Both the position numbers and the translations under genes were made by a program. Shown one piece after another: positions 48,624 through 53,665 of a stretch of DNA of 64,000 bases. How positions within the stretch are numbered: the first letter of the stretch is position 1; every line of letters begins with the position of its first letter. This stretch comes from Neoroseomonas alkaliterrae (GTDB taxonomy: Bacteria; Pseudomonadota; Alphaproteobacteria; Acetobacterales; Acetobacteraceae): the NCBI RefSeq assembly GCF_014199195.1, contig NZ_JACIJE010000009.1, positions 1 to 64,000 of the forward strand, written 5' to 3'. The notes under the pieces were generated by a model, which was not told the DNA's origin, did not search any database, and worked only from the letters and a program-made list of their open reading frames with translations.

Positions 48624-49583
48624 ATGAGCGCCAGCACCCATCGACTCGCCCTTGCCGTCATCGGCGCGGGCCATTTCGGCCGCTTCCATGTCCTCAAGGC
48701 GGCGGCCAATCCGCGTGTGCGGCTGGTGGGGCTTGCGGATGCGGACCCCGCCCGTGCTGCGGCCGTGGCCGCCGAGGCCGGCACCGCCGTGCTGACGGCG
48801 GAGGAGGCCATCGCGCAGGCCGAGGCCGTCATCGTCGCCGCGCCGACCCGCTTCCACCATGACCTCGCCCTCGCGGCCCTTCAGGCCGGGCGGCATGTCT
48901 TCGTCGAGAAGCCGATCGCCGCGACGCTGGCCGAGGCCGATGCGCTGGTCGCCGCCGCCGCGGCGCGGGGCCGTGTGCTCCAGGTCGGCCATATCGAGCG
49001 CTTCTCGGCGGCCTTCCGCGCCGTGGTCGGCGCGCCTGCGGGCGGCCGGGCACTGTCCTGGGATGCGGTGCGCGCCGCGCCGTTCCGGCCGCGCAGCCTT
49101 GATGTCTCCGTCGTGCTGGACCTGATGATCCACGACATCGACCTCGTCCTGACCCTGGCCGGTGCGGATCCCGAGGCGGTGGAGGCGGTCGGCGCCGCGG
49201 TGGCCTCCGAGCGCCCGGATTTCGCGGTGGCCCGGCTCCGTTTCCCGGGCGGGCGCGCGGCGGTGCTGACCGCCTCGCGCGTCTCGATCGCCATGGAACG
49301 CCGGCTCCGGGTTCTCGGCACGGAGGGGGAGATGAGCGTCAACTTCCTCGACCGGTCCCTCGCCGTGCTGCGGAAGGGCGGCGCCGAGCCGGTCGCGACG
49401 ATGCCAGGCTCCGGCGTGGACCGCGCCACCTGGACCGACCACGACAGCCTGGAGGCGGAGCAGGCCGCCTTCGTCGCCGCCTGCCTGGACGGGGCGCCGG
49501 TTGTGGTGGACGGTGCGGCCGGCCGGCGCGCGCTCAAGGTCGCGCTGGCGGTGGAAGCGGCGATCGCCGGAGGAAGCGCATGA
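48624..49583 (+). CDS. Gfo/Idh/MocA family dehydrogenase
   Basis: A 319-residue NAD(P)-dependent oxidoreductase. It has the GAGHFG nucleotide motif at about 14-19, the EKP motif at 95-97 (FVEKPIA), then VGHIERF at 121-127. The GHIERF motif and moderate length resemble sugar-nucleotide 3-dehydrogenases of the WlbA/GnnA kind, and in related alphaproteobacteria such a gene is found near lpxB; here lpxB is about 4 kb away. That role is a suggestion only. It overlaps the ketopantoate-reductase-like gene by 4 bp. Confidence 0.82.
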   Translation: MSASTHRLALAVIGAGHFGRFHVLKAAANPRVRLVGLADADPARAAAVAAEAGTAVLTAEEAIAQAEAVIVAAPTRFHHDLALAALQAGRHVFVEKPIAATLAEADALVAAAAARGRVLQVGHIERFSAAFRAVVGAPAGGRALSWDAVRAAPFRPRSLDVSVVLDLMIHDIDLVLTLAGADPEAVEAVGAAVASERPDFAVARLRFPGGRAAVLTASRVSIAMERRLRVLGTEGEMSVNFLDRSLAVLRKGGAEPVATMPGSGVDRATWTDHDSLEAEQAAFVAACLDGAPVVVDGAAGRRALKVALAVEAAIAGGSA

Positions 49584-50647
49584 GCACACCACGCATCGCG
49601 ATCGTCGGCGCCGGGGCGGTCGGCGGCTATGCCGGCGCCTACATGGCGCAGGCCGGCCACGACGTGACCTTCGTGGACCCCTGGCCCGAACACGTCGAGG
49701 CGATGCGCGCGCGCGGCCTCACCATCCAGCACCTGAAGGACGTGCCCGAGTTCACCGTGCCGGTGAAGGCCATCCACATCACCGAACTGCAGTCCTTCGC
49801 GAAGCAGCGCCTGGTGGACATCGCCTTCATCTGCATGAAGTCCTACGACACCGCCTGGGCGACGGCGATGGTCGCGCAGTATCTCGCGCCCGGGGGCTAT
49901 GTCGTCTCGCTTCAGAACTGCATCAACGAGGAAGTGATCGCCGGCGTCGTCGGCTGGGGCCGCGTGCTCGGCGCCATCGCCTCGCTCATCACGGTGGAAC
50001 TCGCCGCGCCGGGGCTGGTGAAGCGCGCCGCCGGGAAGTCGGGGGCCGCGCACACCGTCTATCGCGTCGGCGAGCCGCATGGCCGCATCACGCCGCGGGC
50101 GGAGATGGTGACATCGCTTCTCGCACTTTCCGATTCGGCTCTGACCACGACCAATCTCTGGGGCGAGCGATGGTCCAAGCTCGTGGCCAACGTCATGGGC
50201 AACGGCATCGCCGCCGCAACCGGGATGGTGGCGAAGGACGCGACGGCCGACGATGCCATCCGCGCCTTCGCCGCGCGCCTGGGCAGCGAGGCGATCCGCG
50301 TCGGGCAGGCCCTCGGCTACGAGCTCGAGGAGATCCTGCACCTCGACCCCGAGATCATCGCCCGCGCGGGGGAGGGCGATGCCGAGGCCCGCGCCGCCTA
50401 TGACGCGCAGCGGCTTGCCGACACGCAGAAGCCCGGCGGCGGCGCGCATCGCGCCTCCATGGGCCAGGACATGGTGAAGGGCCGCCGCACCGAGATCGAG
50501 TTCCTCAACGGCTTCGTCGTCGCCAAGGGCCGGGAGGTCGGGATCGCCGCGCCGGCCAATGCCGCGCTGACGGAGATCGTGAAGCGCGTCGAGCGGGGCG
50601 AGGCGCAGCCATCGCCCGACCTGATCCGAGCGCTGCGGCTGAACTGA
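49580..50647 (+). CDS. Ketopantoate reductase family (ApbA/PanE-like) protein
   Basis: A 355-residue two-domain NADP-dependent reductase. The N-terminal GAGAVGGYAGAYMA motif, CMKSYDTAWA (the KS contact) and SLQNCINEE match the PanE/ApbA Rossmann domain. The C-terminal domain contains the Lys/Asn segment WSKLVANVMGNGIAA and SMGQDMVKGRRTEIEFLNG. It is about 40-50 residues longer than classical 2-dehydropantoate 2-reductase because of an insertion around residues 250-290, so another 2-oxoacid substrate is possible. Coupled by ATGA to the Gfo/Idh gene. Confidence 0.85.
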   Translation: MSTPRIAIVGAGAVGGYAGAYMAQAGHDVTFVDPWPEHVEAMRARGLTIQHLKDVPEFTVPVKAIHITELQSFAKQRLVDIAFICMKSYDTAWATAMVAQYLAPGGYVVSLQNCINEEVIAGVVGWGRVLGAIASLITVELAAPGLVKRAAGKSGAAHTVYRVGEPHGRITPRAEMVTSLLALSDSALTTTNLWGERWSKLVANVMGNGIAAATGMVAKDATADDAIRAFAARLGSEAIRVGQALGYELEEILHLDPEIIARAGEGDAEARAAYDAQRLADTQKPGGGAHRASMGQDMVKGRRTEIEFLNGFVVAKGREVGIAAPANAALTEIVKRVERGEAQPSPDLIRALRLN

Positions 50648-50681: not shown

Positions 50682-50810
50682 AATAATCCCGTGTAACCGC
50701 AATCACGGTGAGCTGTGCGCCTTCGCGCAAAGGTTGTCTCCGTGGCCCGGCCTCGCGGCCGCAAGCCGCCCTCACTCCCGTGAGGCCACATGAGGAAACG
50801 GAGGCCCGAC

Positions 50811-52538
50811 ATGGCACGGACACCGAAGCGCGTGGCTGCCGACCTGGGCGACCATGCTCCCCGCCGGCTGATCATCGAATGCAAGCCTGCCCAGGTCGCG
50901 GCCATGGCCATGGCGCCCGCGGCGGCCGTGCCGCGCGACTTGGCCGCCATCGTCAAGGAGGCCGGCGCGACGCTCGACACGGGCTTCGCCCCGGTCCTGC
51001 TCCCGGCGGTGGCGGGCCAGGATCCGATGGAGCCCGGCTTCGACACCAGCACGCGCTTCGATGTCTCGGCCGCGCCGGGCGATGCGACGATGCTGCTCGT
51101 GGCCGACGGCGATGCCGCCGCCGCCGAGGCGCTGGCGAAGCGCCCCGAGGTCGTCCAGGTCTTCGCCGACCTGCCCATCGAGCCCTGCCTGATCTGTCCG
51201 GGCAGCCCCCCGCTCGGCAATGCCGCGGACGTCGCGAACCTCCTCTGCACCCGCGTGATGCAGGAGCGCGGGCTGAACGGCCTCGGCGTGCTGCTGGCCA
51301 TCGTGGATACCGGCATCAACAAGAACCATCTGGCGTCGCTCGGGATCACGCCGGCGATGGATGTCGGGCGGAGCTGGACTCCCGCGGCGGGCATGACGCC
51401 CTTCGATGCACCGGTCGGCCACGGCACCATGTGCGCCTTCGACGCGCTGATCGGAGCGCCGCGGGCGACTTTGCTTGACATCCAGCTCCTGCGTTCGGGG
51501 GCTGGTGCCTTCACCGCCTTCCTGTCCGACGCGGTGCGCGCCTTCGACCACCTGCGCCGCATCATGGAGGCCCCGCGGCGCCCGGGCGAGACGCGCTCGC
51601 TCGTCGTGAACAATTCCTGGGGCATGTTCCATCCGAGCTGGGACTTCCCGCCCGGTGACCCGCGCAACTACTCCGACAACCCGAACCATCCGTTCAACCG
51701 CGCGGTGGCAGCGCTCGAGGCGGCCGGGGCCGACATCCTCTTCGCCGCGGGGAATTGCGGCTCCGACTGCCCGGATGGCCGGTGCCAGGGCGTGACCAAC
51801 CGTACCATCTACGGGGCGAACGGCCATCCCTCGGTGCTGACGGTCGCGGGCGTGGACACGACGAAGAAGCGCGTCGGGTATTCGAGCAAGGGCCCGGGTC
51901 GGCTGTCCGTGAACAAGCCCGACATCGCCGGCTACACGCATTTCGCCGGATCCGGCGTCTATGCGGCGGATGGCGGCACCTCCGCCGCCTGCCCGGTGGT
52001 CGCCGGCGTGGTCGCCGCGGCGCGCACGAAAAAGCCCTTCCTGCCGGGCAACCCCTCGGCCTCGCCCCATGCGATGCGGGAACTGATCCGTTCGACCGCC
52101 GAGGATCTCGGCGCGGCCGGCTTCGACCACGACACCGGCTACGGCGTCGTGAATGGCTGCGCGGTGGCGGATCGTGTGGTGCCGCAGATCATCGTTCCGC
52201 CGATCGACATCTGCCGTCGCTTCCCCGATCTGTGCCGCAGGCCGGTGCCGATCGACTTCTGCCGGCGCTACCCGCAGCTCTGCAATCCGGTGCCGGGTCC
52301 GGTTCCCGGTCCGATCCCCGGCCCCATCCCGGGGCCCGTTCCCGCTCCGATCCCCGGTCCGATCCCCGGTCCGCGTCCCTTGCCGGGCCTCGGCGATGCG
52401 GAAGCGGGCGAGGCGAGCCTCGAGCAGATTCTCGCGGCGATGTGGCAGATGGGCTATGAGGATGCCCGGCGCGACGCCGCGGCTGCGCCCGCCCCGCAAC
52501 GCAGGGCCGGCGGCTGCGCCTGCGGCGGCGGCGACTGA
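50811..52538 (+). CDS. Cysteine-rich subtilisin-like (S8) serine protease with Pro-rich tail
   Basis: A 575-residue subtilase. The catalytic triad is Asp166 (AIVDTGIN), His204 (VGHGTMCA) and Ser391 (GGTSAACPVVAG), with oxyanion Asn315 (AAGNCG). Residues ~20-130 act as a prodomain, ending PEVVQVFADLPIEPC. After the catalytic domain come two tandem units, PIDICRRFPDLC and PIDFCRRYPQLC (464-491), a PGPIP repeat (493-522), and a tail ending GGCACGGGD. About 14 Cys is unusual for the family. No signal peptide is visible (MARTPKRVAADLG). ATG 50811 has GGAGG; an upstream in-frame ATG at 50790 does not. The next gene resembles the prodomain end. Confidence 0.88.
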   Translation: MARTPKRVAADLGDHAPRRLIIECKPAQVAAMAMAPAAAVPRDLAAIVKEAGATLDTGFAPVLLPAVAGQDPMEPGFDTSTRFDVSAAPGDATMLLVADGDAAAAEALAKRPEVVQVFADLPIEPCLICPGSPPLGNAADVANLLCTRVMQERGLNGLGVLLAIVDTGINKNHLASLGITPAMDVGRSWTPAAGMTPFDAPVGHGTMCAFDALIGAPRATLLDIQLLRSGAGAFTAFLSDAVRAFDHLRRIMEAPRRPGETRSLVVNNSWGMFHPSWDFPPGDPRNYSDNPNHPFNRAVAALEAAGADILFAAGNCGSDCPDGRCQGVTNRTIYGANGHPSVLTVAGVDTTKKRVGYSSKGPGRLSVNKPDIAGYTHFAGSGVYAADGGTSAACPVVAGVVAAARTKKPFLPGNPSASPHAMRELIRSTAEDLGAAGFDHDTGYGVVNGCAVADRVVPQIIVPPIDICRRFPDLCRRPVPIDFCRRYPQLCNPVPGPVPGPIPGPIPGPVPAPIPGPIPGPRPLPGLGDAEAGEASLEQILAAMWQMGYEDARRDAAAAPAPQRRAGGCACGGGD

Positions 52539-52565
52539 ACCGCGCCGCGGAACGAGGAGGCCGGC

Positions 52566-52820
52566 GTGTCCGATACCGTCATGGTGCAGTTCCGCCTGCC
52601 TCCCGGCCCCGAGACGCTCGCCGCCGCGGCCGAGCGTCTCGGACTTCCCGTTTCTGCCCTCGATGCCGCCTATGGCGTCGTGCCGACCGATCCGGCGGAC
52701 CGCCTCTTCACCGTGATGGTGCGCAGCGAGTTCGCCAGCCAGGCGGCCGCGCGCCTGCACGGTGGCGACCCGGCCGAGGGCGTCTTCTCCAATCCGCGCA
52801 TCGAGCCCTTCGGCCCCTGA
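52566..52820 (+). CDS. Small I9-like (subtilase propeptide-like) protein
   Basis: An 84-residue protein starting at GTG 52566, 27 bp after the subtilase stop, with GAGGAGG just upstream. Its second half (RLFTVMVRSEFASQAAARL, then EGVFSNPRIEPFGP) follows the same pattern as the subtilase's own prodomain end: a hydrophobic strand, a helix with ..AAARL/AEAL.., then a VF(S/A)-x-x-x-IEP finish. Free propeptide-like proteins (inhibitor family I9) inhibit or fold subtilases, so I propose a dedicated inhibitor or intramolecular-chaperone partner. Size and placement fit; direct homology needs a profile search. No signal peptide. Confidence 0.6.
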   Translation: MSDTVMVQFRLPPGPETLAAAAERLGLPVSALDAAYGVVPTDPADRLFTVMVRSEFASQAAARLHGGDPAEGVFSNPRIEPFGP

Positions 52821-52891: not shown

Positions 52892-53665
52892 ATGCGCAAC
52901 CCGATGGAACTGACCGGCCGCACCGTCATCGTCACCGGCACCGGCCAGGGCATAGGCCGTGCCATCTCGGAACTCGTGCTCGACCTCGGCGGCAACCTGG
53001 TCATGGTCGAGCGCAATCCGGAGACCTTCGCCGCCGTCTCCGCGGCGCTCGCGGGCGAGCGCACCCTGGCGCTGATGGGCGACGTGACGGACGAGGCCTT
53101 CTGCGCCCGCATCGTCGAGGAAGCCGCGCACCGCTTCGGCGCCGTCCATGGCCTCGTGAACAATGCCGGCATCACGCGGCCCGCGATGATCGAGAAGATG
53201 ACCCTGCCGCAATGGCAGGCGGTGATCGACGTGAACCTCACCGCCTGCCACCTGATGCAGCAGGCGGTCGGGCGGCACATGATCGCCCGCGCCAAGGCCG
53301 GCGAGCAGCGGCCGGGGGCGATCGTCAACATCTCCTCCACAGCCGGCAAGCGCGGCTCGATCGGGCAGGTGAACTATTCGGCGGCGAAGTCCGGCCTCTT
53401 CGGCATGACCATGACGGCGGCGCTGGAATGGGCGCGCTACGGGATCCGCGTTAACAGCGTCGGCTTCGGCACGGTCGAGACGCCGATGACCGAGACCATC
53501 CGCTCCGACCGCTTCCGCGAACGGACGCTGGCGCGCATCCCGCTCGGGCGCATCGCGCAGCCGGCGGAGGTCGCGCCGCTGATCTGCTTCCTGCTCTCGG
53601 AGGCCGCGTCCTTCATCACCGGGCAGAACTGGCTCGAGGACGGCGGCAGCCACATGCAGCCCTGA
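52892..53665 (+). CDS. Short-chain dehydrogenase/reductase (SDR)
   Basis: A 257-residue classical SDR. The cofactor motif TGTGQGIG is at 15-22, NNAG at 90-93, catalytic Ser148/149 (NISST), Tyr162 and Lys166 (YSAAK), and a C-terminal GQNWLEDGG. It resembles FabG-like 3-oxoacyl reductases, but the substrate is unknown. Glu40 after the second strand (VMVERNPE) would favour NAD over NADP. AAGGGGAAGGAAA precedes ATG 52892. Single gene, convergent with the lpxB operon. Confidence 0.9.
   Translation: MRNPMELTGRTVIVTGTGQGIGRAISELVLDLGGNLVMVERNPETFAAVSAALAGERTLALMGDVTDEAFCARIVEEAAHRFGAVHGLVNNAGITRPAMIEKMTLPQWQAVIDVNLTACHLMQQAVGRHMIARAKAGEQRPGAIVNISSTAGKRGSIGQVNYSAAKSGLFGMTMTAALEWARYGIRVNSVGFGTVETPMTETIRSDRFRERTLARIPLGRIAQPAEVAPLICFLLSEAASFITGQNWLEDGGSHMQP

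Follow-up and report, generated by a model that had tools for sequence, protein, structure and literature searches.

A leaderless subtilase and a prodomain-like partner encoded side by side in Neoroseomonas alkaliterrae, and across bacteria and archaea: a candidate protease-inhibitor pair

Stand-alone proteins that resemble subtilase propeptides are already known, among them POIA1, the yeast proteinase B inhibitor, Arabidopsis SPI-1, TgMIC5 and SUB1-ProM, the last of which inhibits SUB1 (PMC6993865). In Aeromonas sobria the protein ORF2 acts as an external chaperone and as an inhibitor of the subtilase ASP, and such operons are found in four other genera (PMC5638518); ASP is propeptide-deficient, according to the title of a work cited in the same paper (PMC5638518). 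Intracellular subtilisins carry an inhibitory propeptide with a LIPY/F motif (PMC6220982). Here we describe a two-gene locus in a 64,000-nucleotide stretch of the alphaproteobacterium Neoroseomonas alkaliterrae (contig NZ_JACIJE010000009.1, positions 1 to 64,000, hereafter the window) which encodes a subtilase with its own prodomain and, immediately downstream, a separate 84-residue relative of that prodomain. The small protein probably acts as an inhibitor of a cytosolic zymogen protease, supplied in trans and entering the substrate cleft with its tail, and perhaps also assists folding.

The first gene (50811..52538, + strand) encodes a leaderless S8 subtilase of 575 amino acids, identified from its open reading frame and translation, an AlphaFold model and a match to Peptidase_S8 (PF00082; E 2.2e-24, residues 159-445), which is the sole Pfam match in the protein. 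The reading frame and the model together divide it into a prodomain (approximately residues 17-128), a catalytic domain (approximately 136-458) and a Cys/Pro-rich tail (459-575). Asp166 (51306-51308), His204 (51420-51422), the oxyanion Asn315 (51753-51755) and Ser391 (51981-51983), all on the + strand, make up a catalytic block (51306..51983) that places the protein in family S8 and is invariant in 85 of 85 close alignment rows, these rows being 84 loci, among them that of the window (L007), and the window protein itself, a repeat of L007. The ATG at 50811 is preceded by GGAGG at 50800-50804, and another in-frame ATG lies at 50790. Judged by hydropathy alone, no signal peptide was seen in 80 of the 84 loci, the window included, when a 12-residue stretch of mean hydropathy ≥1.9 was looked for from 60 residues upstream of the chosen start to residue 25; we read the exceptions as the first prodomain strand (L073 and L086), sequence upstream of the chosen start (L033) and a disrupted N-terminus (L056). 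The second gene (52566..52820, + strand) starts with GTG after a gap of 27 nucleotides and is preceded by a Shine-Dalgarno-like GAGGAGG (52554..52560, +), so that both genes have a good ribosome-binding site; in the one annotated record examined, the small gene of this family is listed as a hypothetical protein. The initial annotation, which had described a complete Asp166/His204/Ser391 subtilase without a signal peptide followed 27 bp later by an 84-residue protein, was thus accurate on the make-up of the locus. A scan for promoters and terminators found none.

The small protein is almost certainly a prodomain relative that has been kept with its protease. The prodomain (50859..51194, + strand), delimited by the element order of the model and by alignment with pro-subtilisin E, is of the I9 type and ends in VFADLPIEPC, and the initial annotation had pointed out that VFSNPRIEP at the end of the small protein (residues 73-81) mirrors VFADLPIEP in the protease (residues 117-125), a likeness that profile comparison extends far above controls. 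Alignment of the small-protein family (44 rows) with the prodomain family (37 rows) by hhalign is colinear over 80 columns at 15% identity, with a probability of 95.9% and, as a single comparison, an E-value of 6e-9. The prodomain alignment (A3) omits seven of 43 chosen loci, the N-termini of which are uncertain or contain insertions; the control run used a 50-row protease alignment (A5) that includes six of these seven (all except L024), and there the score was higher, the prodomain window reaching 59.3 (probability 97%, E 7e-11) over the whole length of the small protein; a second window, overlapping the first and including the prodomain end, reached 43.7. The maxima were 18.5 for other protease windows, from the catalytic domain and tail, 12.2 for the reversed profile and 16.2 among 40 column-shuffled prodomains; since these lie far below 59 the resemblance is beyond chance. 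At E ≤ 0.001 the family profile recovered 45 full-length small genes from 50 whole genomes and otherwise two matches, one to a partial second copy (G791) and one to the protease's own prodomain (G779, E 2.8e-4). Because the profile-profile matches with their controls and the whole-genome matches agree, the small protein and the prodomain are, on sequence profiles, homologous and anciently diverged. The partial copy lies at C80:95209-95322 of an Acidimicrobiales metagenome-assembled genome (MAG; E 1.5e-10).

General profile collections make the relationship less apparent. The protease prodomain scores 12.3 bits against Pfam inhibitor I9 (PF05922), below the cut-off of 21.2, over profile positions 57-78 of 82; such a sub-threshold match occurs in one of 37 family members, and PF05922 has 0 matches in the whole genome. 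Searches of NCBIfam, PADLOC and PHROGs with the window member gave nothing significant for the small protein, and its tail motif occurs nowhere else in the genome at E ≤ 1. When the PDB was searched by sequence, starting from the small protein, from its family profile or from that of the prodomain, only chance-like rows came back, and the best of these for the prodomain profile, a ribosomal protein (E 0.019), was set aside as such. Against Klebsiella phages the small protein gave two matches (E 0.04 and 0.07), both on the strand opposite annotated genes and dismissed as chance.

The initial annotation had proposed a survey of gene neighbourhoods as a check and had regarded lack of conservation of the pair as telling against it; the two genes do occur together. 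In a plasmid collection searched by tblastn, Nonomuraea gerenzanensis and Streptomyces akebiae carry both, with a subtilase 46-48% identical and a small protein 38-40% identical located 14 and 24 nucleotides downstream. When 84,980 species genomes were scanned with a four-row protease alignment, 248 relatives emerged, and the best 80 of these were searched at E ≤ 1e-6 with a profile built from ten small proteins, of which eight come from the 80 loci. The small gene is present in 71 of the 80 loci, and in 63 of the 72 outside the seed. In 63 it lies downstream on the same strand within 230 nucleotides (33 within 30) and in six upstream on the same strand (four within 30, the others at 325 and 1,324), with one further locus on the opposite strand and one at 4.6 kb; 67 of 80 in total have it on the same strand within 230 nucleotides, all these distances depending on the start codons chosen. 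A whole-genome check covered 50 of the 80 loci; 45 of these genomes have a full-length small gene, in every case the one found at the locus of the protease. The two genes were never seen fused (0 of 71). None of the eighteen distant subtilase loci (L008-L023, L025 and L028) has a small gene within the stretch examined, and so it goes with this clade. When the search started from the small protein, four of 398 genomes in a phylum sample were positive, and in the three others besides this one the gene adjoins a 40-62% identical subtilase; one of these (G525) shares its contig coordinates with the L040 genome and the other two (G588 and G591) belong to one genus, so the sample provides few independent cases. 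Among the 14 largest clusters of neighbouring genes only the small gene and ABC-transporter ATPases (10 loci), taken as a ubiquitous family, recur across phyla; this clustering is weak evidence, because the crude gene caller caught the small gene in only 23 loci.

The pair is found in eight bacterial phyla, Pseudomonadota, Gemmatimonadota, Acidobacteriota, Nitrospirota, Chloroflexota, Actinomycetota, Planctomycetota and Cyanobacteriota, and in methanogen-related archaea. On a tree of 100 catalytic domains the loci with the small gene upstream form one clade (support 100/98), composed of three cyanobacteria, two archaeal MAGs and a Kuenenia MAG, and absence of the small gene requires three changes. 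The loci of this clade are L047, L049, L050, L051, L056 and L087, and both of its proteases that were scanned (L049 and L050) have a PPC domain. Distances between proteases correlate with those between small proteins (r 0.85 for 75 pairs, 0 of 1000 permutations), as they do in a subset of 28 rows, most of which lie outside the main actinobacterial clade (r 0.65, again 0 of 1000 permutations), and among the 75 pairs the nearest relative of both window proteins is in Sandaracinobacteroides hominis.

Closer to home the distribution is patchy. Of 35 genomes of the genus, a single-sequence search found the small gene in no other than this one; four further members and one member of the class gave weak matches (E 0.0045-0.01), which lie in long or interrupted frames and were not accepted. 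The pair is flanked by an ApbA-type gene (49580-50647) and an SDR gene (about 52892-53665), and because these lie 41-189 nucleotides apart in 14 of 19 congener loci examined the pair looks, on gene order, like a two-gene insertion between them; in the other five the SDR gene is more distant or lies beyond the stretch examined. The genus, this genome included, also has a second group of subtilases (L008-L016 and L019-L023), 35-39% identical and without the small gene, of which L022 (G000:C1:676652-677704) is the member here. Several of this group adjoin, by eye, a Crp-type cyclic-nucleotide regulator or a class III nucleotide cyclase, and Pfam confirmed one of each. A distant subtilase on a Sinorhizobium chiapasense plasmid (L028, 4200-6041) has an N-terminal tandem repeat of the type GGAGxQNPxLGP ahead of its prodomain, and no small gene was found within the stretch examined there.

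The two proteins have a similar predicted order of secondary-structure elements. The AlphaFold model of the small protein, built from 64 sequences (alignment A4), has a mean predicted local distance difference test (pLDDT) score of 93.7 and the order strand-helix-strand-strand-helix-strand found in subtilisin propeptides. In the protease model (mean pLDDT 80.7) residues 18-119 follow broadly this order too, and residues 16-454 match unprocessed pro-subtilisin E with Z 36.9 and a root-mean-square deviation of 3.1 Å over 334 residues, the two prodomains being aligned with one another in the model; chains matched by the catalytic part alone give lower values (Z 31.6-33.8).

Conserved positions of the small protein include those of its C-terminal tail, V-F-S-N-P-R-I-E-P-F-G-P (52782..52817, + strand), the part proposed to enter the cleft. 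In alignment A4, which comprises the window protein and 63 of the 71 small-gene loci and leaves out eight near-copies (by eye) as well as L024, L026 and L027, position 76 is Asp in 43 and Asn in 21 of the 64 rows; Ile79 is kept in 58, Glu80 in 50 and Pro81 in 56, position 82 is Phe or Tyr in 45, and the residues that follow are Gly in 48 and Pro in 42. Subtilisin propeptides cap helices of their enzyme with a pair of acidic residues, Glu69 and Asp71 in BPN', and insert their tail into the active-site groove, and in SUB1-ProM the capping residues are Glu146 and Asn148 (PMC6993865). Asp120 of the protease prodomain is invariant in 85 of 85 close rows. If Asp120 and Asn76 are placed without gaps on Asp71 of BPN', residue 82 of the small protein would presumably be P1. 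The P1 residue of the subtilisin propeptide itself is Tyr. The pattern suggests that the tail would bind as a product or a slow substrate.

Accordingly, the two genes would be a stable unit in which a protease is accompanied by a mimic of its own prodomain. In the reading that we favour, the subtilase would be made in the cytosol as a zymogen with an N-terminal I9-type prodomain, and the small protein, as an anciently diverged relative of that prodomain supplied in trans, would dock at the prodomain's docking site. Its tail, [FY]-[SA]-[ND]-P-x-I-E-P-[FY]-G-P, would lie in the substrate cleft like a product or poor substrate, with Ile at P4, an aromatic residue at P1 and a Pro at P2' that may hinder cleavage. 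The small protein would then inhibit the enzyme after it has lost its own prodomain, until some trigger releases the activity, and may also aid folding. That it inhibits the protease in trans is, on this evidence, likely.

Several observations weigh against this reading. PF05922 has no match in the window small protein at E up to 10 and none in 44 members of the family at E up to 1. Among solved structures, RRM and other ferredoxin-like domains rank best against the small-protein model, with pro-subtilisin 3cnq_P at Foldseek rank 22 (E 0.22; Z 5.1), and because the model is indistinguishable from other ferredoxin-like domains the predicted fold is not by itself diagnostic of a propeptide. The tail departs from the consensus in the cyanobacterial/archaeal clade and in Nocardia. 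All four query rows of the genome scan came from pair-carrying loci and the 80 loci are the best of the 248 so obtained, and therefore the conservation holds for this clade and not for subtilases at large; many of the pair loci come from MAGs, and correlated distances are expected of any linked genes. Nine of the 80 loci, from eight Nonomuraea and [Actinomadura] parvosata, are without the small gene, and it was not found in the five genomes of this group that were searched whole, where only 110 of 135-239 first-look candidates were scored; the protease thus seems able to persist alone. Of what the initial annotation had proposed, a protease-inhibitor/chaperone pair, the prodomain homology and the conservation of the pair have held up. 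Its proposal is partly supported: the Pfam I9 model does not recognise the small protein and the predicted fold by itself is not diagnostic, but the profile relationship to the prodomain and the expected order of elements are both there, and the inhibitor or chaperone role is a well-founded inference.

The partnerless loci also bear on what else the small protein might be, since they keep both the catalytic triad and the prodomain. Were it mainly a folding helper, an external chaperone like Aeromonas ORF2 with inhibition as a by-product, the gene layout would be as expected, because ORF2 is likewise encoded just downstream of asp and is needed for maturation (PMC5638518); ORF2 also inhibits, with a half-maximal inhibitory concentration of 84.3 nM and its C-terminal region at the catalytic site (PMC5638518). 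ASP is propeptide-deficient, however, whereas the subtilase here retains a prodomain that aligns with that of pro-subtilisin E, and proteases with an intact triad and prodomain exist without the partner, and we consider a predominantly chaperone role unlikely. Even less probable is that the small protein serves as an adaptor or regulatory subunit which brings substrates or a signal to the enzyme, with the prodomain fold as a surface for binding and not as a lock. Asp33 and Gly37 (window 52662-52676), invariant in 64 of 64 rows with Tyr or Phe at residue 36, would suit such a function, as they lie ahead of strand 2 and the tail-in-cleft model does not account for them; it is nonetheless the inhibitory end that has most in common with the prodomain, and an adaptor would be a very surprising outcome.

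Between these two in likelihood, and improbable in our estimation, is a mobile toxin/immunity-like or defence module in which a dangerous cytosolic protease is neutralised by its partner. The site of the pair, between genes that lie close together in most congener loci, its patchy occurrence (one of 35 genus members, four of 398 genomes in the phylum sample) and a tree that mixes phyla would all agree with mobility, and PADLOC reports a sub-significant match to the subtilase IetS (E 0.02, 10.8 bits). An obligate antidote is nevertheless disfavoured, because the protease persists in Nonomuraea genomes that have no partner gene. SecDF, Gfo/Idh, ApbA, SDR, LpxB and GNAT proteins account for six of the neighbours, PADLOC finds no defence protein beyond E 0.006 among seven neighbours, and the phage matches of the small protein are due to chance. 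Membership of the IetAS system was also considered and rejected, the IetS match being sub-significant and IetA being absent from the seven neighbouring proteins scanned.

The trans-acting inhibitor that we prefer may not be the only restraint on the protease. Cys129, Cys316, Cys320 and Cys325 are invariant in 85 of 85 close rows, with Cys208 kept in 82 and Cys394 in 62. Three of them form a loop, N315-C316-x3-C320-x4-C325 (51753..51785, + strand, from the alignment rows), in which Cys316 directly follows Asn315, and Asn315 aligns with the oxyanion-hole Asn of subtilisin. Model confidence falls here (mean pLDDT 59 for residues 321-330). In Plasmodium SUB1 activity is controlled by a labile disulphide between Cys534 and Cys521, the residue right after the oxyanion Asn520 (PMC4024747). 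The arrangement is the same in that a Cys comes right after the oxyanion-hole Asn (Asn520-Cys521 there, Asn315-Cys316 here) and differs in that SUB1 has the one labile disulphide, Cys521-Cys534, whereas here there are three invariant Cys within 11 residues. By this analogy a thiol or metal switch at the loop is a fair hypothesis. In 16 distant rows without the small gene Cys316 is kept in 14, Cys320 in 12 and Cys325 in 16, and because the loop is so common in these paralogues it is, as far as the alignments go, not tied to the pair. It is conceivable, if doubtful, that the locus represents a mobile proteolytic switch of bacteria and archaea with three locks, namely its own prodomain, the mimic in trans and a Cys-based thiol or metal switch. 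Unlocking, for example by oxidation or lysis, would then activate the subtilase, and the parallel with Plasmodium SUB1, which combines a stand-alone mimic with a Cys after the oxyanion Asn, would probably have arisen by convergence.

The C-terminal tail of the protease (52206..52535, + strand) contains two C-R-R-[FY]-P-x-L-C motifs, a Pro-rich linker and a predicted helix at residues 534-558. It has a GGCACGGG end and terminates in GGCACGGGD; a CxC end was counted by eye in 13 of 16 relatives (L029-L044) and was not present in the Streptosporangiaceae, Streptomyces and Nocardia rows viewed (L052-L055, L057 and L058).

The pair offers a prokaryotic system in which a subtilase prodomain exists both in cis and in trans. 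It makes testable why a protease should need a prodomain as well as a mimic of it, and whether mimicry of its own propeptide is what restrains a cytosolic serine protease. Its recurrence across phyla points to a widespread, uncharacterised control of intracellular proteolysis, and because the pair occurs in Pseudomonadota, Actinomycetota, Cyanobacteriota, archaea and others the answer would apply to many genomes. Among the literature matches listed there is no published account of the pair, with subscription journals mostly outside the search, and the available part of a 2008 survey of prokaryotic serine proteases mentions no separate partner for such a protease (PMC2605481). The statement in the initial annotation that no system of this composition has been described was nevertheless too strong, given that Plasmodium SUB1-ProM and Aeromonas ASP/ORF2 are both published.

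SUB1-ProM resembles the small protein in being a stand-alone propeptide-like protein with a propeptide fold, encoded beside subtilisin-like genes, and in having an Asn as one helix-capping residue, like Asn76 here; it is a potent and selective inhibitor of SUB1 (PMC6993865). Compared by description, it is eukaryotic and has a secretory signal, whereas the pair here is prokaryotic and leaderless, with both genes on the same strand 27 nucleotides apart. The yeast proteinase B inhibitor, Pleurotus POIA1, Arabidopsis SPI-1 and Toxoplasma MIC5 are likewise small, stand-alone proteins of propeptide fold that act on subtilases (PMC6993865). All four differ from the small protein in being eukaryotic. 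To our knowledge, most of them are not linked to the gene of their target. Intracellular subtilisins share the need of an intracellular subtilase for restraint by a propeptide, but theirs is of the LIPY/F type and no separate partner is mentioned in the available text (PMC6220982); the protease here has an I9-type prodomain of approximately 110 residues, LIPY or LIPF was not found in it by eye, and it was not assigned to this group. The closest bacterial counterpart is ASP/ORF2, again a subtilase with a separate protein encoded directly downstream, the C-terminal end of which is at the active site (PMC5638518). ASP is secreted and lacks its own propeptide, whereas the subtilase here, compared by description, has no signal peptide that could be seen and has a pro-subtilisin E-like prodomain, which sets it outside that system. 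Stand-alone propeptide-like inhibitors in eukaryotes and a bacterial external chaperone, ORF2, are thus already known and what is new is the prokaryotic version found here; since related systems have been published and the pair itself is not among the literature matches listed, it is best regarded as a prokaryotic variant of a known theme.

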